DNA of 38,372 nucleotides from a virus: IMG/VR virus record IMGVR_UViG_3300012683_000014, positions 1 to 38,372 of that record; one strand, 5' to 3'. This document shows positions 1-28,380 of this stretch, piece after piece; position 1 is the first letter of the stretch; the number at the start of each line of letters is the position of its first letter. The position numbers and the translations under genes are program-made. The notes below the pieces were generated by a model, which was not told the origin of the DNA, made no database searches, and was given only the letters and a program-made list of their open reading frames with translations.

Positions 1-492
1 AATACTTCGCCTGGCGCTAGCGCTGGCACCTCGATCATGGACAGGCTGGCCCAGACCCCAGGCTATCAATTCGCGCTCCAGCAGGGCCTGCAAGCAACCC
101 AGTCAGGCTTTGCGGCGCAGGGCCTAGGCCAAAGCGGGCCGGCCTTGAAGGGCGCGGCACAGTACGCCGAAGGGCTGGCTAGCACGACCTATCAGCAGCA
201 ACTCTCTAATTTCTTCAACCTCATGTCATCTGGCCAATCGGCGGCTGCTGGGCTCGGAGGCCTCGGCCTACAAAGCGCCGGGCAGGCTGGTGGCTTCAGC
301 ACCTCCGGGGCTGCTGCCTCCGCTGGCGGCCTGGTTGGCGCGACCAATGCCCTTGGCGGTGGAGCGCTGAACTACTCGCTGCTGAACTCGCTCGGGATGT
401 TCAACAGCCCCGCTGGGCCTGCATCGGCTGGGGTCATAACTCCGAGCGCCTACGGAGTCTACGGTGGGTTCCAGCAGTCTGGAGGCGGATAA
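1..492 (+). CDS. DNA-ejection / internal virion-like protein, C-terminal part (5' end outside window)
   Basis: The frame is open from base 1, so the gene starts before the window; the first internal ATG is at 37. The visible part contains a TPGYQFALQQGLQAT stretch, then GLGQSGPALKGAAQYAEGLA and a Gly/Ala/Ser-rich tail. This pattern (TPGYQF, helix, 'GLxxSG..LKGA..YA.GLA..TYQ') is common near the ends of phage internal-virion or DNA-transfer proteins. The next gene starts at its stop codon, and three more virion-like genes follow on the same strand, so it probably belongs to the DNA-ejection apparatus. The family link is recalled from general knowledge and is moderately sure; the partial length is certain. 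Confidence 0.7.
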   Translation, partial: NTSPGASAGTSIMDRLAQTPGYQFALQQGLQATQSGFAAQGLGQSGPALKGAAQYAEGLASTTYQQQLSNFFNLMSSGQSAAAGLGGLGLQSAGQAGGFSTSGAAASAGGLVGATNALGGGALNYSLLNSLGMFNSPAGPASAGVITPSAYGVYGGFQQSGGG

Positions 493-4319: not shown

Positions 4320-4604
4320 CTAGTCCAGTGCCGAGTCAATCATGACTTTCCAGACAGTCGTAGCCGAAAGCGTACATGCTGCTGGATCGCTTCCGCCTCG
4401 AATGAACGCAATTCCTGCATTTCGCATGGTTTCTGTTGGCTCGCGTATCGCTGCGACCGCAGCTCTCGCTGCGTCATCGTAGCCGCCATCCCGAACTGGG
4501 CACTGTCGCCTCCCTCGATTCGCGGGCCACTGGCAGCAGCTGGCACCCTCACAGGTCCTGGACTTGCAAATCGCGGTGGCGACTCGGGTGAGAAGGTCGT
4601 TCAT
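4320..4604 (-). CDS. Small Cys-containing protein, unknown
   Basis: 94 residues, ATG start with CAGGAGCC about 8 bases upstream. The N-terminal half has a cysteine cluster (CKSRTCEGASCC, later CPVRDGG) that could bind a metal. The second half is helical (DDAARAAVAAIREPTETM). It is the only gene between the convergent virion block and the sigma-factor gene. The 33-base repeated element at 4627-4659 ends about 22 bases before its start, so it seems to have its own control. The function is not recognised. Confidence 0.7.
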   Translation of the reverse strand: MNDLLTRVATAICKSRTCEGASCCQWPANRGRRQCPVRDGGYDDAARAAVAAIREPTETMRNAGIAFIRGGSDPAACTLSATTVWKVMIDSALD

Positions 4605-4816
4605 GGTGGAGGCTCCTGGTGGATGAAATATTCATGGTGAATGATGGGTGCAGGGATTAGGATTGGCGGGATTTGCCCCGCACCATCGACCGCGACCCTC
4701 CCCCCAAAACCCGCCCACGGCCGTCAATTCGTGGCTCCTGCCAAACCTGCCCGATCCTACCTTTTCCAAACCCAGCATGGGCCGTTGCCACAATCTCCAG
4801 AGCCATGGGCTCAGTT
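4605..4816. other. Intergenic region between sigma-factor gene and 4320-4604 gene
   Basis: About 210 bases with no convincing gene. The right part is pyrimidine-rich on the + strand. A short dyad, GCGGG-N6-CCCGC, lies near 4667-4682. The only strong signal is the repeated element at 4627-4659. I see no good sigma70-type promoter pair here. Confidence 0.6.
4627..4659 (-). promoter_or_regulatory. Conserved 33-base element, copy A
   Basis: One of three copies (others at 19260-19292 and 28348-28380). Read on the + strand, the blocks ATATTCAT, TGAAT, TGGG and AGGGATTA are identical in all three and equally spaced: 25 of 33 positions. The first two blocks form an inverted repeat; the rest is asymmetric, so the element has a direction. 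All copies face the same way, toward leftward genes. Here the end nearest the gene lies about 22 bases from the start codon, so transcription may begin within or just after it. It is a promoter or an activator/repressor site; the sequence alone does not decide. Confidence 0.65.
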
Positions 4817-6028
4817 TCATCTCAACACTTGCTGAATCTCTGCAATCAGTTCATCCGCAGCTGCGCTATGCCTTGGCCCGAGCGACTTGTCGATATCTCT
4901 ACTGACCAGCGCTGACCGAGCCCTTGCAACTCGACTCTTAATCGTTCCCTCGGCAACGCCAAGCTTCTGCGCTGCCTCATCATATGACATACCTGCCGCG
5001 ATCAACAGTAAGGCCTTTCGCTGATCCTCCGGCAACCCTCTCATCGCGGCCATTACATTGGCGAGCTCCTCAGCTTGCTCAGCCCTATCATGCTTCCCAT
5101 CTGGGATAATTGCTGCCTTCTCTTCGCTCCAGTCCACCTTCCTCCACGATCGGCGGCCCTCAGATATCCAGGTGTTTTTCATAATCATGCAGGCCCAAGC
5201 GAAGAGGTTCGAGCCAGGTTTGAACTGGGAACGGGCCTCCAATGCTTTCAACAGCGTGATTGAAATCAGGTCCTCGGCTGCTTCGCTGCTTCGAGCAAGT
5301 TTCCAGGCAAAGCCTTTTAGACGTGGTCGGAGAACTGCTAAGTCTTTATTAAAGATTGCGGCTTTCTCCAGTCTCTGCCTTCGAGTCTTCCAGATCCTCT
5401 GCCCTCGCCCAGCCATCTTGGGCGAGTTCAGCATCGCGAGTCGCATCTTCTCCCGAAACTCTGGGTCAGCCCAAAGGTTCTTAGCACTGAACGAGAGCTT
5501 AGACTTGATACTTGCCTTCCGAGCATTCCTCCGAATCCCAGCAATCAGCTTGAGTCTCGCCAGAGGATCAGCCCAGCGCGCTTTCAACGCTCTGCTCGAA
5601 TTGGCCCTGTAATTTGGATCAGCTTGTCCTGCGACCATCGCGGCCATGATTCGTCTGCGATTCTCAGGATCACGCCAGAACTTCCGTCGGTGCTCAGCGG
5701 CTTTCGCTCGGGCCTCGGGATTGGAGTAGAATTTCCTAATCTTCCGGCCATAGTTTTCTCGAACTGCCGGGTCTCGCCACCGGCGTCGATTCTGCTCGGA
5801 GAGCTTCTCATGCTGCACGGGGTCGCTCCAGCGACGGGCATTGTGAATTGCGAGCCGAGCGAGCGCCTCGGGCGTTGAATGTGCCTTGCCTATGTTAGCC
5901 CGCCGTTGAGCGGCATTCTTAGGATCGCGCCAAGACAAAGTAACAGCACACGACCTCGAGCATGACCGACGAGCTTTGTTTCGAGCTGGAGGCTCGAACT
6001 CCTTCTGACAGGCCTCGCAGATGCTCAC
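4817..6028 (-). CDS. Fusion: zinc knuckle + 17-residue W-x-DP repeat array + ECF sigma factor
   Basis: 403 residues. The GTG start overlaps the upstream stop (GTGA). Residues 4-27 form a Cys knuckle (C4, C7, C23, C27). From residue 33, W-x-D-P or a variant recurs every 17 residues exactly (33, 50, 67, 84, 101, 118, 135, 152, 186, with a degenerate unit at 169). Such Arg-rich units resemble the NUMOD3-like DNA-binding repeats next to phage homing endonucleases, but no HNH or GIY nuclease motif follows. Instead residues ~226-300 match sigma region 2 (AAEDLISITLLKALE, FAWACMIMKNTWI) and ~329-376 region 4, with the helix-turn-helix YDEAAQKLGVAEGTIKSR. It probably directs host RNA polymerase to phage promoters, with the repeats adding DNA contacts. 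Sigma assignment is firm; what the array binds is inferred. Confidence 0.85.
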   Translation of the reverse strand: MSICEACQKEFEPPARNKARRSCSRSCAVTLSWRDPKNAAQRRANIGKAHSTPEALARLAIHNARRWSDPVQHEKLSEQNRRRWRDPAVRENYGRKIRKFYSNPEARAKAAEHRRKFWRDPENRRRIMAAMVAGQADPNYRANSSRALKARWADPLARLKLIAGIRRNARKASIKSKLSFSAKNLWADPEFREKMRLAMLNSPKMAGRGQRIWKTRRQRLEKAAIFNKDLAVLRPRLKGFAWKLARSSEAAEDLISITLLKALEARSQFKPGSNLFAWACMIMKNTWISEGRRSWRKVDWSEEKAAIIPDGKHDRAEQAEELANVMAAMRGLPEDQRKALLLIAAGMSYDEAAQKLGVAEGTIKSRVARARSALVSRDIDKSLGPRHSAAADELIAEIQQVLR

Positions 6029-7254
6029 TCGACGCCTCGTTCGTGGCGAGGGCGCGGTGTCCAGAGGTCCAGTGAATTTGGTACCCGCTGCAGGACATTC
6101 GACCGCTCTGCGACCATCAGGATCTTCTCAATCTTGTCCGAGGGGACTCTCTGCCTCAGCCACTCCCAGATCATCTCCCCGTTCACCGGCTTCTGCTTGG
6201 ACTTGGCCCACAGAGCTGTCACGAAGAAGTGCAGATCGTCGATGACCTGGGAGTCAGATTTGCCGATCATTTCGCGGAAGATATCGGGCATGACACGTTC
6301 AGCATCGGTCAGCCACTCAATCGCCCGCCTGGTATCGATCTCGTCGATGACGGTCATGCCGGTTCGACTGACAGCGCTTACAACAGCCAACTTGGTAGCT
6401 AAGAGCGTCCTCGAGCCCTCGTAGTGAACCAGCTTGCTGTGGGTCGTCTTCGGCGGGCGACCTTCGCGATGCCACTTCGCAAAATGCACGACGGCGGACT
6501 TCGTCCAGCTGGCTTGGCCATACAGAATCGAGATGTCTGTCAGCCTGTGCAGCATGAACTCGGCCGCGACCTCGTGCTCGATCGGCATGTCGGAGAACTC
6601 GCGGAAAGGGGTCTCGTTGGAGTAGACCATTATTAGGCGCCGGCTGATGCCGGTGGACCAGGCATTTTCTGGGAAGACGCTGTAGAGCCAAGCTGGCTGC
6701 GCTCCGCCCAGGATATTGATTTGAGGGTTCTCAATCCTGATCTCCTGCGCCGGGCCGTGTCGACGGGTCTCCTCGTGGACCGGGTCGCAGTTGAAAATCG
6801 CGTTCAAAGTCCCAATGTATTCCAGATCGTAGTCTGGCAATAACACTCCAAACTCCTCCGCGGCGATCAGCAGGGAATGGTAGACCAGTGGAGGCCCCTT
6901 CGGGGTCAACTTCGTGGTCTTGGCTTTTGCCAATCTGTCTATCAGACTCGCCTTCGTCATCGAGCTCGGCGCGACGTGGAAGGCCGGAGCTTTGCTCCCG
7001 GACTGGCAGGCATCGTGCCAGAGCTGGCGAGCGTTCTCGATAATATGCTTCCCGATGCCAGGATTGCCGACGAGCAGCACGTATAGATTGGGGAAGCAGG
7101 TCCCTAGACTCGTGACCGCCCAAACCCTTCTCTCGAGCGCCCCGGCAACGAGCGATATCGCGGCCCATCTTCGAAAGATATCTGGAGACATGGCTCCTTC
7201 TGTGAGGGACATAAAATCCCCGACGAAGTCGGTCCACTCGCCATTCCGCTGCAC
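6025..7254 (-). CDS. Primase/helicase-type P-loop ATPase (DUF3987-like)
   Basis: 409 residues, GTG start. Motifs seen: the N-terminal SPDIFRRWAAISLVAGALE, a P-loop GNPGIGKH at about residues 61-68, and an acidic LLIAAEEFGVLL at about 127-138 in the Walker B place. This is the layout of phage DUF3987 ATPases, usually taken as the replicative helicase or primase-helicase partner. Oddly, the residue after the P-loop Lys is His where Thr or Ser is normal; this could alter ATP use. The gene sits between thyX and the sigma factor (4-base overlap with the latter) in the replication operon. A separate primase was not recognised. Confidence 0.75.
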   Translation of the reverse strand: MQRNGEWTDFVGDFMSLTEGAMSPDIFRRWAAISLVAGALERRVWAVTSLGTCFPNLYVLLVGNPGIGKHIIENARQLWHDACQSGSKAPAFHVAPSSMTKASLIDRLAKAKTTKLTPKGPPLVYHSLLIAAEEFGVLLPDYDLEYIGTLNAIFNCDPVHEETRRHGPAQEIRIENPQINILGGAQPAWLYSVFPENAWSTGISRRLIMVYSNETPFREFSDMPIEHEVAAEFMLHRLTDISILYGQASWTKSAVVHFAKWHREGRPPKTTHSKLVHYEGSRTLLATKLAVVSAVSRTGMTVIDEIDTRRAIEWLTDAERVMPDIFREMIGKSDSQVIDDLHFFVTALWAKSKQKPVNGEMIWEWLRQRVPSDKIEKILMVAERSNVLQRVPNSLDLWTPRPRHERGVE

Positions 7255-8441: not shown

Positions 8442-8664
8442 ATCTATTCTCCGCATATGAGTTAAGTGAATTGAGCACGAACTGGGCGTCTAGTACGTTC
8501 TTGAGCACCAGGTCAGGAATAATCCCTCGTCGGTCTCTGATAGTCCAACGCTCAGCGCCGCCAGTGCCAAGCGGACTAAACGTCATCGTAAATCGAGCAT
8601 CGGCTAGGCCATAATCCTCTTGATTCCGACTTGGCGCTGCCTTCTGTCCTGTCCTGGTTGCCAT
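8425..8664 (-). CDS. Small protein, unknown
   Basis: 79 residues from ATG 8664, which would overlap the polymerase gene by about 60 bases. An in-frame ATG at 8586, 17 bases after the polymerase stop, gives 53 residues and fits the tight spacing of the operon better. Neither has a strong ribosome site. The C-terminal part (RWTIRDRRGIIPDLVLKNVL) looks like a compact alpha/beta protein. The next gene starts within its last codons. Function unknown. Confidence 0.6.
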   Translation of the reverse strand: MATRTGQKAAPSRNQEDYGLADARFTMTFSPLGTGGAERWTIRDRRGIIPDLVLKNVLDAQFVLNSLNSYAENRYGKAR

Positions 8665-10187
8665 TTGACTAGTCCATCTGGGTTGAACTTATTCCCCTGC
8701 CCAAGGGGCTTCGAGGCATCGTGCATCGAGCCCCAGTTCCAGCCGACCTTGGCCTCGCCAGGGCAGATATATCGACGGCCCTGGTGCTCCAGCGGGACTT
8801 TGATTAGCTCCAGGGCCTCAGCAACGACCTCGTCGAATCGACTGTCGTCCTGGACCTGGAACGTGACCGAGTCGTAGCCCTGGCCAAGTAGCTGGACTTG
8901 GGGCATGTGCTTCCAAATTCGCCACAGTCCAAGGTTCATCCGATCAGCCGTCGTGCTCTGGGGCATATATGCTATCGCCTCGCGAAGCGTCGTGTCGTCG
9001 CCAGGCCGCCCGAAGAAATGCCTCGTCCGGCCGAATGGAGTGGTCAGGCTATGTGGAGGCGTCTGAATCTGCTGCGCGATCCATTGCCACCACCTTGGTA
9101 TGCAGGGAAATGCTGGCACAATCGCCGGATGGAAAGTCCCTTTCTTGTCCGTGAACTGGGCTCGGCCGAGAATATACCGGGCCTGGAACTCTTCCAAGGT
9201 CGCGATCGGCATTTTCATGACTCTGGCGGCGGTCCACGCAGTACCCATGTAATTCGAGAGATGAGCTCCCCGTTTTGACATGAACCTGTAAGAGAAATCT
9301 CGGTAGAATATACTGCTATCGGCCAGCCATTTATCTCGATCTGGCACTCCGGTCCACTTGAGTTCTCGGGGCCAGACGAGCTTGCAGACGCTGGTGTGCA
9401 AGTCACCTGACTCGCAGGCATCGAGATATGACCAGTCATTGAATAGCACTCCGCAAAACCACCCAACGTCTCGGGCCTCGACCTGTTCCAGGTCGATGAC
9501 TACGAGTTTCCAACCAGGATCTGCCACAAAGACGTACCGAAGACCCAGCGCAACATTTTGTAAATTGCCGCCCGTTCCGAAGGCGTTAGATGAGCTGGAA
9601 GGCCGTCCGGTCTCAGTGCCTGCAATGTTGTAAGATGTTCTAATTCGTCCATCACGATCAATTTCAGTCTCAAGTACCTCTCGCTGTTTAGCAAGATCTC
9701 GAAGCCCAAGAACTGCACTGACGAAGGGCCGGGCGTAGAGGTAGGAGTCGAGCTTTTCAAGCGCTTCGCGGTTGGTCGAGAGCTTCCTTTCCCCCTTCTG
9801 CGAGAGCCAGACTTCGGGGAGCTTGAGCGAGCTATAGAAGAAGTCCTTGAGTTGAGCTGGTGAACGTGGATTCAGCGAATGGCCGCAGGCAGCTTGAGCC
9901 ATCTCGTTCAAAGTCGCTTGCAATCGCAGCTCTCTGGCACGCAGCGAGTCGACGGCTTGCCGTCGAGCAAGTTCATCGACTAGAAATCCTCGCTGCATCA
10001 TTTCTAGATATGGGGCCTGCAGCGCTCGCTCGAAGGAGTAGATTTGAGGGGGCTGGTTGAACAGCGACGAGATCTCCTCGAAGACCTCTAACATGACTAG
10101 GCTATCGAGACAGCAGTAAGTCTGTAACGTATCAATCGCTGACAACGGAGTTGTCGGAGTCAGCTCCTCGGTTTTGATCAGAGTCAT
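8604..10187 (-). CDS. DNA polymerase I-type, C-terminal part: exo III motif + polymerase domain (split gene)
   Basis: 527 residues. Residues 24-28 (YCCLD, then SLVMLEVFEEI) are the third 3'-5' exonuclease motif, but exo I and II are absent; they are encoded in the gene at 11231-12397. The polymerase domain is complete: motif A LVVIDLEQVEARDVGW (~residue 225), the O-helix KRGAHLSNYMGT (~306, with His where Pol I has the nucleotide-binding Lys), and motif C GYDSVTFQV (~436, Tyr in place of the usual His; Asp kept). It resembles polymerases of the SPO1 type, where glycosylase-like, exonuclease and polymerase parts form one chain. Here the two proteins must presumably associate. ATG follows the upstream stop by 2 bases. 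Confidence 0.88.
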   Translation of the reverse strand: MTLIKTEELTPTTPLSAIDTLQTYCCLDSLVMLEVFEEISSLFNQPPQIYSFERALQAPYLEMMQRGFLVDELARRQAVDSLRARELRLQATLNEMAQAACGHSLNPRSPAQLKDFFYSSLKLPEVWLSQKGERKLSTNREALEKLDSYLYARPFVSAVLGLRDLAKQREVLETEIDRDGRIRTSYNIAGTETGRPSSSSNAFGTGGNLQNVALGLRYVFVADPGWKLVVIDLEQVEARDVGWFCGVLFNDWSYLDACESGDLHTSVCKLVWPRELKWTGVPDRDKWLADSSIFYRDFSYRFMSKRGAHLSNYMGTAWTAARVMKMPIATLEEFQARYILGRAQFTDKKGTFHPAIVPAFPCIPRWWQWIAQQIQTPPHSLTTPFGRTRHFFGRPGDDTTLREAIAYMPQSTTADRMNLGLWRIWKHMPQVQLLGQGYDSVTFQVQDDSRFDEVVAEALELIKVPLEHQGRRYICPGEAKVGWNWGSMHDASKPLGQGNKFNPDGLVKWQPGQDRRQRQVGIKRIMA

Positions 10188-11014: not shown

Positions 11015-11238
11015 GCCAGCGGGGGCTCCGGAAGAGGCATCCAGTGAGTTGGTTCGATTTCGATGTATAGAGGAGTCTTTGGGCTTCCATCAAAATCCTG
11101 TAAATAGCCTACGATCCAAGCCCAAGTCCCGCGAGAGATCTCAGCCCATTCAGCTTTAACGACTCGTTCTCTGTCCGCGATCAAAATCTCAGTGCCGTTC
11201 ATTGGAGCTGTCTTAATCGGTTGCCACTCGCTACTCAT
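11011..11238 (-). CDS. DUF551-like small protein
   Basis: 75 residues. The pattern EWQPIKTAPMNGTEILIAD followed by VVKAEW and a THWMPLPEPP ending matches the DUF551 type of small phage/prophage protein, which has no known function. Its start overlaps the end of the glycosylase/exonuclease gene by 8 bases and its stop overlaps the next start, so it is translated as part of the same unit. Confidence 0.75.
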   Translation of the reverse strand: MSSEWQPIKTAPMNGTEILIADRERVVKAEWAEISRGTWAWIVGYLQDFDGSPKTPLYIEIEPTHWMPLPEPPLA

Positions 11239-12397
11239 CCCGCTTCTCCGTGTCAGCTTTTCGCCGTCGCATCAGCTTCCATGACTGCTCGCTGGAATAA
11301 ATCGACCCAAGGAACCCGAGGCCTTTCTGAAGCTCCGGGAACAGCGAGTGATGCAATAACATCGTATCCTCTCCCTGGCGCATATCGACCTGCAGACCCA
11401 TCGGCAGGATGTATTGGAGGTCATACAGGCCGTTCTGGAAGACCTTGGGCGCGCTGCAAGCGAGCAGCGACTGGCAGCAGCACCAGGCTGCGTACTCCTC
11501 CCCCTGCGAGGGCCAATAGCTCCAGCCGGGCTTGGTCTCATCCACGAAGGGGACACAGATGGCATCGGACTTCGACCTCGCGAATGAGATACACTTGATC
11601 TGGCCAAATGCCGTCTCGCAGTCTACTCCTAAGTACGCTGGCGGATTGTCGAGAGCCTGGTTAGTCCAATGACCGAGCTCGTCTAGCGAGGGGCTGACCA
11701 GGGCTTGCCTGGCAGGTCGTCTTATCTCTGGATAAGCCAGCTCTCTGGCGGCCTTCATCAAGTCCGCGACCACAATCGGACGCCAGGACCATTGTCTCAA
11801 AACCCCTGCTGGGTGAAAAGTCGCGAGGCTTTTTCGACCAGGACACACACCTTGCTGAACGCCCTCGGCGACAGATCCTCGGACGCTACTGATATTCGTA
11901 ACTCCGAGAACAGCCCAAAGTGCCGTATTGCCGAGGCACAGGACAAGATTAGGCTTAACGAGTTCAATCTCGCGTCGAAGGCGGTCAAGTTCTGGTAGGA
12001 ACTCGGGTAGGAGATACTTTCCCTTGGTAATCGAGGGATATAGATAACGTGCTCCACCGACGGCCTCCTTCTTATCGCATAGCGCTTCGAGCTTGTTCCC
12101 CGGCGGCTGCAGGGCCAGGACGTTGGTCAGGAGTATGCTCGCATCAGAGAGCCATTTGGCTCGCTCTCGGACCCAGGCCAGGCCATACTTATGGAGCTCC
12201 GCTGCCCGGTGCCAGTTGTCGTTGACGAGATGAGGCATGGCTTCGCCAAGACAGAGCCAAAGTTCTTTTCCTGACTCACCTACGAAAGGTTGTCTTAGTT
12301 CTGATTCACCTTGTCCAAAAGCTTCTCCAACGATAACTAGTCTAGCATCGTGAGGACCAGCCGTTGCCGCGAACGGAGGAAGTGGAATATGAGTCAC
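11231..12397 (-). CDS. Uracil-DNA glycosylase-like domain + exonuclease motifs I-II (N-terminal part of split DNA polymerase)
   Basis: 388 residues, GTG start overlapping the HNH gene stop. The first ~215 residues are family 4/5-type uracil glycosylase-like: GEAFGQGESELRQPFVGESG (24-43), TNVLALQPPGN, CLGNTALWAVLG and ATFHPAGVL. Residues ~253-388 start a DnaQ/Pol I-type proofreading domain: exo I LGVDCETAFG and exo II FQNGLYDL, then EDTMLLHHSLFPELQKGLGF. It stops at TEKRDE just before where exo III (YxxxD) should come; that motif opens the polymerase gene at 8604-10187. The domain order is that of the SPO1 polymerase. The glycosylase-like part may recognise uracil or be structural only; not settled by sequence. 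Confidence 0.85.
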   Translation of the reverse strand: MTHIPLPPFAATAGPHDARLVIVGEAFGQGESELRQPFVGESGKELWLCLGEAMPHLVNDNWHRAAELHKYGLAWVRERAKWLSDASILLTNVLALQPPGNKLEALCDKKEAVGGARYLYPSITKGKYLLPEFLPELDRLRREIELVKPNLVLCLGNTALWAVLGVTNISSVRGSVAEGVQQGVCPGRKSLATFHPAGVLRQWSWRPIVVADLMKAARELAYPEIRRPARQALVSPSLDELGHWTNQALDNPPAYLGVDCETAFGQIKCISFARSKSDAICVPFVDETKPGWSYWPSQGEEYAAWCCCQSLLACSAPKVFQNGLYDLQYILPMGLQVDMRQGEDTMLLHHSLFPELQKGLGFLGSIYSSEQSWKLMRRRKADTEKRDE

Positions 12398-12936
12398 GGT
12401 CTGTAGTTCTCTCCGAATAACTCTCGGCCTTTTTCGTCCCGCGCAGTCTTTGCCTCCTCCCAGGTTTCATATCGACCAATATGAATCGACCTGTAATTGT
12501 GCATAATATTGGCGAGCCATTTCTGACGCCCCTCATCCCAGAAGACGCCCTTCACGCCAGACTTTCCTCTGGCACGGCAATTGCCTGCATTTTGCGAGTG
12601 TGTAATATCTCTGAGATTATCGACTCGATTATCTGAAGGATTGAGATTTATATGGTCGATCTCATGCTCAGGCCATTTTCCATAGACATACAACCACACA
12701 AGCCTGTGCATCAAATATAGCTTGTAGTTATAGCCTACAACCCAATAACCGTCCCCGCGATCGCGGCCTGCAAGTTGCCCTGCGCGGACCTTGACTCCTC
12801 GTTGTAACCAATAGAACTTGCCAGTTTCAGGTTCGTACTTGAAAATTTTTCTAATATTCTCGGCGTCCATTGGAAGGAAATTTGAGCCTCTTCCATCGCG
12901 CAAAAAGATGGGAATTATCTCCGGTGTTTCAGTCAT
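12394..12936 (-). CDS. HNH homing endonuclease with AP2-like DNA-binding domain
   Basis: 180 residues. The HNH core is EIDHINLNPSDNRVDNL (~residues 88-105) after LMHRLVWLYVYG; a C-terminal AP2/NUMOD-like segment follows (GVKGVFWDEGRQKWLANI, then GRYETWEEAKTAR). It cuts DNA to spread its own gene. It is free-standing, in the operon by ATGA and GTGA overlaps on both sides, between the ParB-methyltransferase and the first half of the split polymerase. The gene is clearly more A+T-rich than its neighbours, as expected of a mobile element. No intron boundaries are seen. Confidence 0.9.
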   Translation of the reverse strand: MTETPEIIPIFLRDGRGSNFLPMDAENIRKIFKYEPETGKFYWLQRGVKVRAGQLAGRDRGDGYWVVGYNYKLYLMHRLVWLYVYGKWPEHEIDHINLNPSDNRVDNLRDITHSQNAGNCRARGKSGVKGVFWDEGRQKWLANIMHNYRSIHIGRYETWEEAKTARDEKGRELFGENYRP

Positions 12937-14468
12937 TTTCCACCCGCCATCGCACCAACAAGCCTCGGCATGGTCGCGACAGCAGCTGCCCTCCTGGTCT
13001 GCCGTTCTTGTTTGAGTGCTGTCCGAGCGAGCTCGGCTGACACCGGGTCGATCTCCAGCCCTAGCACATGCTTCGCACCGAGTGATTCAGCGGCCCGCAG
13101 AGCTGCCCCACTGCCGCAAGTTGGATCGAGCATCGAGGTCGTCTCATCCACGATCATCGCCATGAAATGCTTCAGCATCGGCGCAGGCTTGGTCGAGACA
13201 TGGAGACGCTTATCGGTGGGGGAGGAGTACGAGTCGGCGACTACGCGGACGATCTGCCTCCGGCCCCTATTCGCAAACAACGCTGTCTCATACGTGTGCC
13301 TTGGCCCCATCCTCGGATCGCTCGCGATCCCTGCTCCATCCGACTTGACCCAGACCAGCGGGTGCAGGTGGAAGCCGAGCGAGGGCGCTCGGCGGCGGAA
13401 TATATCTCGAGTCGCGTCGATGTGCTTGGCAGAGTACCAGAACATCAGATGCCCGGAGACAGACATCAGCCGGTCGATGTTCTGGCAAAGACACTCCAGC
13501 AGCGCGAAGTAGAGATCTGGTTTGTCCTCGTACACGGAGCTCTCGCTCCCGAGACCCTGAGGCCCAGAAGCGAACTCGATCCCGTAGGGGAAGTCGCAGT
13601 GGATGAAGCTGAACTTCGGCCCGCGGTAGCGGGGGGCCCAGTCCAGGAAGCTCTCTAGCAGGATCGACTGCTCGGCCGGGATGATTGGAGGAGGTTCTGC
13701 CGGAGGCAGCGGTGGGTCATATCTGCCGGGCATTGGTTCTGGCAGGCTGTCAAAACTCTCCGACATCGCCGCAATTTGGCTGGGTGGCAGATCAGGGGTT
13801 TCGAGCAACTCCTGCAAGGCATCTCCGGCGGCTCGTTGCTGCCTTCTCAGAATCACGTTATACGCATCTGGCATGGTCTTAGCTTCGCGGATTCTCTCCT
13901 CGCCCAGATACGAAGTCAAAATGATGCATTTGGAGATGAAGTTCTGCGAGAGCGATAGTTGCTCCGCAGTCTCGGAAATGGTCTGATCCGCATTAAGTTC
14001 TCGATAAAGCTGATGAATCTTCGTGATGGCCTGAACGAGGTCCACCCATGGCAGGTCTGTCCGCTTGATATTCTCTTCGAGTTCGATGATGTTCGATTCG
14101 ACTGGCGATAAATCCTCCGCGAAGCGGCAGAGGATGTCGAGGTGGCCGAGGTTTTTGCAAGCTGTCAGCCTTCTCTCCCCGGCCCGAAGCTCGAGCTCGG
14201 AGGTGATAATGATCGGCTGGAGCAGCCCGATCCGCGCGATCGAGCTCTCGAGGGACTTCGTCTCGACCTCGCGTCGCTGACGCTCATCGCGCTTGACTCT
14301 GATATCAGAGATGGGGACCCGAACTGTTCGATCTGTGATTGGCACTGGCGAGTCTCCGTCTTTGATATCTGCATCGGCTTCGGACGGGCAGCGCCCCAGC
14401 CAGCGGGGTACGGGGCAATGGGTCTGGCCGGGGGCCACCGCCAGTGCAATGTCGGCTAGACCCTGCAC
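12933..14468 (-). CDS. ParB-like nuclease/DNA-binding domain fused to DNA methyltransferase
   Basis: 511 residues from GTG 14468. A later GTG at 14345, with GGAGA before it, is an alternative that removes a poorly structured 41-residue leader. The N-terminal ParB/Srx-type domain has LRAGERRLTACKNLG and NIIELEENIKRTDLPW, then a helix-turn-helix (ISETAEQLSLSQNFISKC). A Pro-rich linker near residue 255 leads to the methyltransferase: catalytic motif IV is FIHCDFPYGI (~291), and the SAM-binding motif LDPTCGSGAALRAAE lies near 449. This order, IV before I, is that of beta-class N4/N6 enzymes. Motif IV has DFPY, not DPPY. It may methylate phage DNA against host restriction or guide replication proteins; the target site is unknown. 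Confidence 0.88.
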   Translation of the reverse strand: MQGLADIALAVAPGQTHCPVPRWLGRCPSEADADIKDGDSPVPITDRTVRVPISDIRVKRDERQRREVETKSLESSIARIGLLQPIIITSELELRAGERRLTACKNLGHLDILCRFAEDLSPVESNIIELEENIKRTDLPWVDLVQAITKIHQLYRELNADQTISETAEQLSLSQNFISKCIILTSYLGEERIREAKTMPDAYNVILRRQQRAAGDALQELLETPDLPPSQIAAMSESFDSLPEPMPGRYDPPLPPAEPPPIIPAEQSILLESFLDWAPRYRGPKFSFIHCDFPYGIEFASGPQGLGSESSVYEDKPDLYFALLECLCQNIDRLMSVSGHLMFWYSAKHIDATRDIFRRRAPSLGFHLHPLVWVKSDGAGIASDPRMGPRHTYETALFANRGRRQIVRVVADSYSSPTDKRLHVSTKPAPMLKHFMAMIVDETTSMLDPTCGSGAALRAAESLGAKHVLGLEIDPVSAELARTALKQERQTRRAAAVATMPRLVGAMAGGK

Positions 14469-19259: not shown

Positions 19260-19292
19260 AATATTCATCATGAATAATGGGCCGAGGGATTA
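19260..19292 (-). promoter_or_regulatory. Conserved 33-base element, copy B
   Basis: Same blocks and spacing as copies A and C; 29 of 33 positions match copy C. Its last three bases are the stop codon of the SLOG-family gene. It lies just upstream of the sigma70-like promoter at 19210-19238 and faces the 19.1 kb leftward block. Possible second promoter or activator site. Confidence 0.65.
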
Positions 19293-28347: not shown

Positions 28348-28380
28348 GATATTCATCATGAATGGTGGGCCCAGGGATTA
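28348..28380 (-). promoter_or_regulatory. Conserved 33-base element, copy C
   Basis: Third copy, in the same orientation as A and B, facing the left operon although about 320 bases from its first start codon (28030) and about 240 bases upstream of the leftward -35. If it is a promoter, the transcript has a long leader through the AT-rich repeat region. Confidence 0.6.

Follow-up and report, generated by a model that had tools for sequence, protein, structure and literature searches.

The choice of promoters by a sigma factor is generally ascribed to its own regions 2 and 4, with tuning by anti-sigma factors or by extensions. A gene in the virus record analysed here (the window, which is the whole record of 38,372 bases) encodes a single protein in which a Cys knuckle and a tandem repeat array precede an ECF sigma factor, and it raises the question of what such an array does in front of promoter-recognition domains. 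The reading favoured here, at a probability of roughly one in two, is that the phage acquired an ECF sigma factor that works with the host core polymerase, and that the array at its N-terminus holds on to DNA and thereby shifts the choice of promoters. The source virus infects bacteria, probably Alphaproteobacteria. The features on which the argument draws are collected in Table 1.

Table 1. Features of the array–sigma locus and related elements, with positions in the window.
Feature	Position	Residues	Strand	Basis or remark
Array–sigma gene	4817..6028		(-)	403 aa; begins with a GTG that overlaps the upstream stop codon
GAGG, Shine-Dalgarno-like	6035..6038		(-)	Six bases 5' of the GTG; read from sequence
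Primase-like gene (PHROG 14296), upstream, overlapping	6025..7254		(-)	PHROG match
Cys knuckle (C4, C7, C23, C27)	5933..6028	1-32	(-)	Sequence; Cys invariant in nuclease-free relatives
Array of ten 17-residue units (that at residue 169 degenerate)	5423..5932	33-202	(-)	Periodicity and one predicted helix per unit
Continuous helix, array end into region 2	5294..5422	203-245	(-)	Predicted, pLDDT 63-84
Sigma region 2	5141..5329	234-296	(-)	Pfam; 1h3l_B rmsd 1.8 over 78; 5uxx_C 1.6 over 81
Sigma region 4	4907..5059	324-374	(-)	Pfam; 2o8x_A rmsd 1.1 over 60
Repeat element copy 1	4628..4659		(-)	Pattern match; 23 bases upstream of ORF 4320-4604
Repeat element copy 2	19261..19292		(-)	Pattern match
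Repeat element copy 3	28349..28380		(-)	Pattern match

The frame is open through all 403 codons without interruption, and the architecture first proposed from the letters alone (a Cys knuckle, about ten 17-residue units and ECF sigma regions 2 and 4 in one protein) was indeed found in a single 403-residue frame. The GTG start shares bases with the stop codon of the primase-like gene (GTGA), and this overlap, together with the GAGG motif, argues for expression from the GTG. An internal ATG also exists at residue 195, with an SD-like GGGAG three bases before it. The GC3 values of the two halves of the gene (0.61 and 0.57) are not unusual for the genes of this phage and are even on both sides of the joint. 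An assembly artefact that joined two genes is extremely unlikely as an explanation of this structure: no second copy of the joint was found, as an artefact would predict, yet the join is in frame, an extra array-like W lies at residue 213, past the array end, a predicted helix runs through the joint, the flanking genes are syntenic with those of relatives and GC3 does not shift across it.

That the C-terminal part carries complete ECF regions 2 and 4, as had been claimed, was upheld by profile searches and structural superposition alike. Sigma70_r2 (45.8 bits, residues 234-296) and Sigma70_r4_2 (56.7 bits, residues 324-374) both scored above the Pfam cut-off, and the general ECF model TIGR02937 matched with 84.8 bits (cut-off 42.9). 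Region 3 is absent, with only about 27 residues, most of them modelled at low confidence (pLDDT below 50 at residues 295-313), between the Pfam matches; the 403-residue protein thus has the domain content of an ECF (sigma-70 group 4) factor, regions 2 and 4 and no region 3. Judged by sequence, the sigma part is closest to the alphaproteobacterial EcfG-type factors. Identities to plasmid-borne factors reach 38.8% (Sphingobium) and 38.5% (Nitratireductor) and span about 32-44% overall, the best solved sequence relative is the Bartonella EcfG-type RpoE in complex with NepR (5uxx, 83.7 bits), and with the EcfG (ECF15) profiles the best relatives are of the EcfG type, whilst the equivalog cut-offs are missed. 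None of the plasmid or phage sigma relatives examined carries an array.

Two observations connected with the sigma part count against the favoured reading. In region 2.2 the D-L-V-Q-E-T of most relatives is replaced by D-L-I-S-I-T; the altered residues help to bind core RNA polymerase, and the change could alter core contacts, whilst other ECF factors (L183, L186) also vary in this region. Secondly, no EcfG-type promoter stands out in the window, in which the pattern GGAAC-N15-19-CGTT has two weak matches, one of them inside the DNA polymerase gene. An alternative is that the protein is an EcfG mimic aimed at the anti-sigma factor NepR or the host's general stress regulon rather than at phage promoters, in which the array only localises the sigma factor. 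Such a role would suit a protein whose closest solved relative is an EcfG-type sigma bound to NepR and whose best matches on plasmids are sigma factors of Alphaproteobacteria, but identity to such factors is only about 32-44% and region 2.2 diverges, which makes it very unlikely.

The array has the exact 17-residue period ascribed to it by the sequence-only reading. The marker residue (W, H, Y or Q, followed by x-D/N/T-P) stands at residues 33, 50, 67, 84, 101, 118, 135, 152 and 186; the motif is lost in the unit at residue 169, so that nine of ten motifs are kept, and no stop interrupts them. Across residues 30-205 there are 34 identities at lag 17, more than in any of 2000 shuffles (maximum 28), each of which was scored by its best lag from 5 to 39. 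The array is also rich in Arg and Lys. Viral contigs contained at least 120 stretches with two W-x-D-P units side by side, and over 495 units the consensus is W-x-D-P-E-[YF]-R-x-K-M-S-E-A-x-K, with 17 as the commonest spacing. The consensus of NUMOD3 is H-S-x-E-T-x-x-K-I-S-x-A, which that of the W-x-D-P unit resembles when the two are set side by side, and one GIY-YIG-type protein (L133) has both kinds of unit in a single array and matches the NUMOD3 profile. The NUMOD3 profile search (PF07460) that had been proposed for the protein gave no match in the window's own record at E values up to 10; the array is therefore NUMOD3-like and by profile not a member of that family.

Amongst 96 proteins with W-x-D-P arrays, Pfam recognised GIY-YIG in 29, SegE GIY-YIG in 10, Mom in 11, NUMOD3 in five and REase_MTES_1575 in four (members of these groups may overlap). 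The description of the array as of the homing-endonuclease type therefore stands in so far as its units mostly accompany GIY-YIG nucleases, whilst membership of Pfam NUMOD3 does not. No nuclease domain (GIY-YIG, HNH or EDxHD) was found by Pfam in the 403-residue protein, in agreement with the earlier claim that the nuclease is absent. In the homing endonucleases of phages, NUMOD-type modules are DNA-binding parts (reviewed in PMC3943268), and the array of the array–sigma protein may act likewise. The attachment of W-x-D-P arrays to DNA-acting enzymes elsewhere supports the reading in which the array grips DNA. The presence of Mom in 11 of the 96 proteins means that these arrays accompany DNA-modification enzymes too, and very long W-x-D-P arrays were seen in L001 (5221-9039, with a Mom domain after it) and L011 (8817-10802).

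The closest relatives of the N-terminal half, which have both the knuckle and the array, are encoded on a few other viral contigs. The knuckle is formed by a C-x2-C and a C-x3-C pair within residues 4-27 and would be suited to metal binding; its four Cys, together with most W and P positions of the array, are invariant among these relatives, whose arrays differ in length. In L126, L127 and L128 the identity to the window's protein is 39-45%, with knuckle and array aligned end to end. L126 consists of the array with a short tail only, whereas in L127 and L128/L129 the knuckle is preceded by some 75-80 residues, winged-helix-like by eye, which give no significant match in Pfam. In L130 the knuckle-array is joined to a C-terminal PHROG 24127 domain, which occurs without an array in Ochrobactrum phage POI1126 and in the Brevundimonas phages Leszy and Delta, and L131/L132 are more distant knuckle-array proteins. 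Among the relatives scanned, neither Pfam nor PHROGs recognised a nuclease domain. On these alignments the window's array belongs to a small, newly described, nuclease-free phage subfamily whose members have varied partners or stand alone. The suggestion that the module came directly from a homing endonuclease is thus unsupported, as its nearest array relatives are already nuclease-free and have other partners; because these are phage proteins without a nuclease, the sigma factor may instead have joined, or been joined by, an existing nuclease-free module.

A degenerate sigma domain was considered for the C-terminus of L130 and rejected, as a clean alignment gave an hhalign probability of 3.9%; an apparent 98% match was discarded as circular, since its alignment contained L130 itself. 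Likewise, a region-4-like match near the L126 array gene is a LuxR/GerE-like HTH by eye and not a sigma region. L130 (5968-7023), L138 (3620-4279) and L139 (3413-4249), from alphaproteobacterial phages, have the C-terminal domain of L130 in common behind three different N-terminal modules. It ends in S-[IL]-D-A-x-I-x-G-T-D...H-F-stop, and its likeness to a sigma region is by eye only.

The primase gene is common to 18 viral loci (38-55% identity), and in two relatives the stretch that follows it contains a gene of the endonuclease VII-like (L144) or HNH (L159) kind. Related isolates include Caulobacter phage Kuura (33%) and some Pseudomonas phages, 119X among them, in which the next gene downstream is the hypothetical Kuura_024 or a MazG-like gene. 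Sixteen records with the shared primase gene were searched whole without a match to the array–sigma protein, their region-4 profile matches were all below cut-off, and in seven of them, where the primase and the opposing structural genes are both visible, neither a sigma factor nor an array lies between them. Because relatives lack it and have nuclease genes at this site, the array–sigma gene can be regarded as an accessory gain at an endonuclease-taking hot spot. Elsewhere in the window, a gene for an HNH endonuclease with an AP2 domain (12394-12936, minus strand) overlaps both neighbours at its ends and has a GC content of 0.47, lower than other genes measured, and is probably a recent mobile gene. 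The gene at 12933-14468 (minus strand) combines a ParB-like N-terminus with an N6/N4 DNA methylase-like domain, and that at 11231-12397 (minus strand) fuses a uracil-DNA glycosylase domain to a stretch matching positions 551-800 of the PHROG 17 DNA polymerase profile; the polymerase domain lies in a separate gene (8604-10187).

A search for the same domain order in viral contigs, phages, plasmids and genomes, which had been called for, found none. Apart from the window's own, none of the at least 120 W-x-D-P stretches in viral contigs belonged to a sigma factor. No second array–sigma fusion was found when viral contigs and species genomes were scanned with knuckle-array profiles, among the matches of the full protein to phages, plasmids and genomes, or with the array alone in phages and plasmids; four new matches from a knuckle-pattern search were chance reading frames. 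These scans used short exact peptide patterns or the best matches listed, so 'singleton' is meant within the sequences searched. In that sense the fusion is a singleton, which counts against the favoured reading. A literature search found no paper joining sigma factors with NUMOD arrays, and the statement that no described sigma factor has such a module accordingly held in the sequences and the literature searched.

Both its isolation and its site would be expected if a nuclease-free array ORF had been fused by chance to an acquired sigma factor, the sigma factor alone working from an internal start or neither part working at all. The singleton status, the HNH/endonuclease VII hot spot, the 16 of 16 related records without the gene and the internal ATG with its GGGAG all point this way. 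Neglect, however, should erode the two halves, and both are intact, with nine of ten motifs kept and no stop; GC3 of each half is within the phage's range, and the GAGG and the coupling favour the full-length start. A chance fusion is accordingly judged quite unlikely.

The proposed structure prediction of the 403 residues, for which relatives of the array and ECF relatives were aligned, returned helical repeats and sigma domains that match solved ones at 1.1-1.8 Å (mean pLDDT 78.5, pTM 0.34). Each 17-residue unit is modelled as one helix of about 15-16 residues with a break at x-D (pLDDT mostly 84-93), and a single helix, with no loose linker, joins the array to region 2. Region 2 fits SigR (1h3l, 1.8 Å over 78) and the EcfG-type RpoE (5uxx, 1.6 Å over 81), and region 4 fits SigC (2o8x, 1.1 Å over 60); these matches support the favoured reading. 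How the array and the sigma domains are placed relative to each other is uncertain because the pTM is low, and the rows of the solved-structure comparison that span residues 203-387 list no array match.

Under the favoured reading, the protein would be made with the replication genes through translational coupling to the primase gene, regions 2 and 4 would bind host core RNA polymerase, as we infer from the sigma part, and the Cys knuckle and row of helices would lie along the DNA beside the promoter. The array would then either stabilise the complex on phage DNA or select promoters with an extra recognition sequence, and it is in this way that the protein may influence promoter choice. The array might alternatively be a DNA tether that reads no sequence, or an N-terminal extension with a regulatory task, by which the sigma factor is masked or localised. 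Its richness in Arg and Lys and its variable length between relatives would suit such a role, and other ECF factors have N-terminal extensions too, for which no mechanistic data at all have been reported (PMC8103513). The reported extensions nevertheless differ in kind, that of ECF36 comprising transmembrane helices and DUF2275 (PMC8999054), and the repeat type of the array accompanies DNA enzymes, so that this alternative is unlikely. Whilst ECF N-terminal extensions as such are known, one of this nature is undescribed as far as the searches reach.

A more specific version of promoter selection is offered by a repeat in the phage's own genome. The existence of a 33-base element was confirmed by three exact matches to TAATCCCTNNNCCCANNATTCANNATGAATAT in the window, where none is expected by chance; all three are intergenic and on the minus strand, and two of the three contain the palindrome ATTCATSATGAAT. 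The element is a candidate leftward promoter or operator. Nineteen related records gave no match to it when up to three mismatches were allowed; that only the sigma-bearing record has it would be compatible with a target site, and equally with any phage-specific element. Its sequence is not ECF-promoter-like, which counts against the favoured reading. A modular, one-helix-per-unit array fused in cis might direct promoter choice through a long extra sequence, besides or instead of the -35 and -10 boxes, and that sequence is possibly the three-copy element; this proposal is put forward tentatively and is rather unlikely.

Through a natural cis fusion of a sigma factor with a homing-endonuclease-type array, promoter choice would be extended or re-aimed by a new route. 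Such a fusion would also show phages making transcription factors out of pieces of mobile elements, and engineers would gain a modular component. As the extension is a clear DNA-related module, it also makes the role of ECF N-terminal extensions testable.

Set against known systems, the protein has the same complete regions 2 and 4 without region 3 as the EcfG-type ECF factors, and differs from these in its Cys knuckle, its ten-unit array, its D-L-I-S-I-T motif and its place in a phage gene. Its sigma domain is related to the phage sigma factors of PHROG 1740 (E 1.5e-24), and the sigma-70 factor of Rhizobium phage RHph_N34, at 29% identity, is a protein of 174 aa with no array. The arrays of phage GIY-YIG homing-type endonucleases have the same period and the same unit, W-x-D-P-E-[YF]-R-x-K-M-S-E-A, but the window's protein has no nuclease and is unmatched by Pfam NUMOD3. 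Knuckle and array align end to end with those of L126, L127, L128 and L130; the partners found across L126-L130 are a winged-helix-like N-terminus, the PHROG 24127 C-terminal domain or none, and the window's partner is a sigma factor. A parallel in concept came from the fold search, in which chain C of PDB 9n9q was matched (E 2.8e-3). This entry is an RNA-guided transcription complex, in which an inactive Cas12f recruits an ECF-type sigma factor, so that a nuclease-derived DNA reader steering a sigma factor is common to both as an analogy only. Were the array to direct promoter choice in cis, the phage protein would be a protein-only parallel to guided sigma recruitment: the reader in 9n9q is a separate RNA-guided protein, whereas that of the window is an array of protein alone, fused to its sigma factor.
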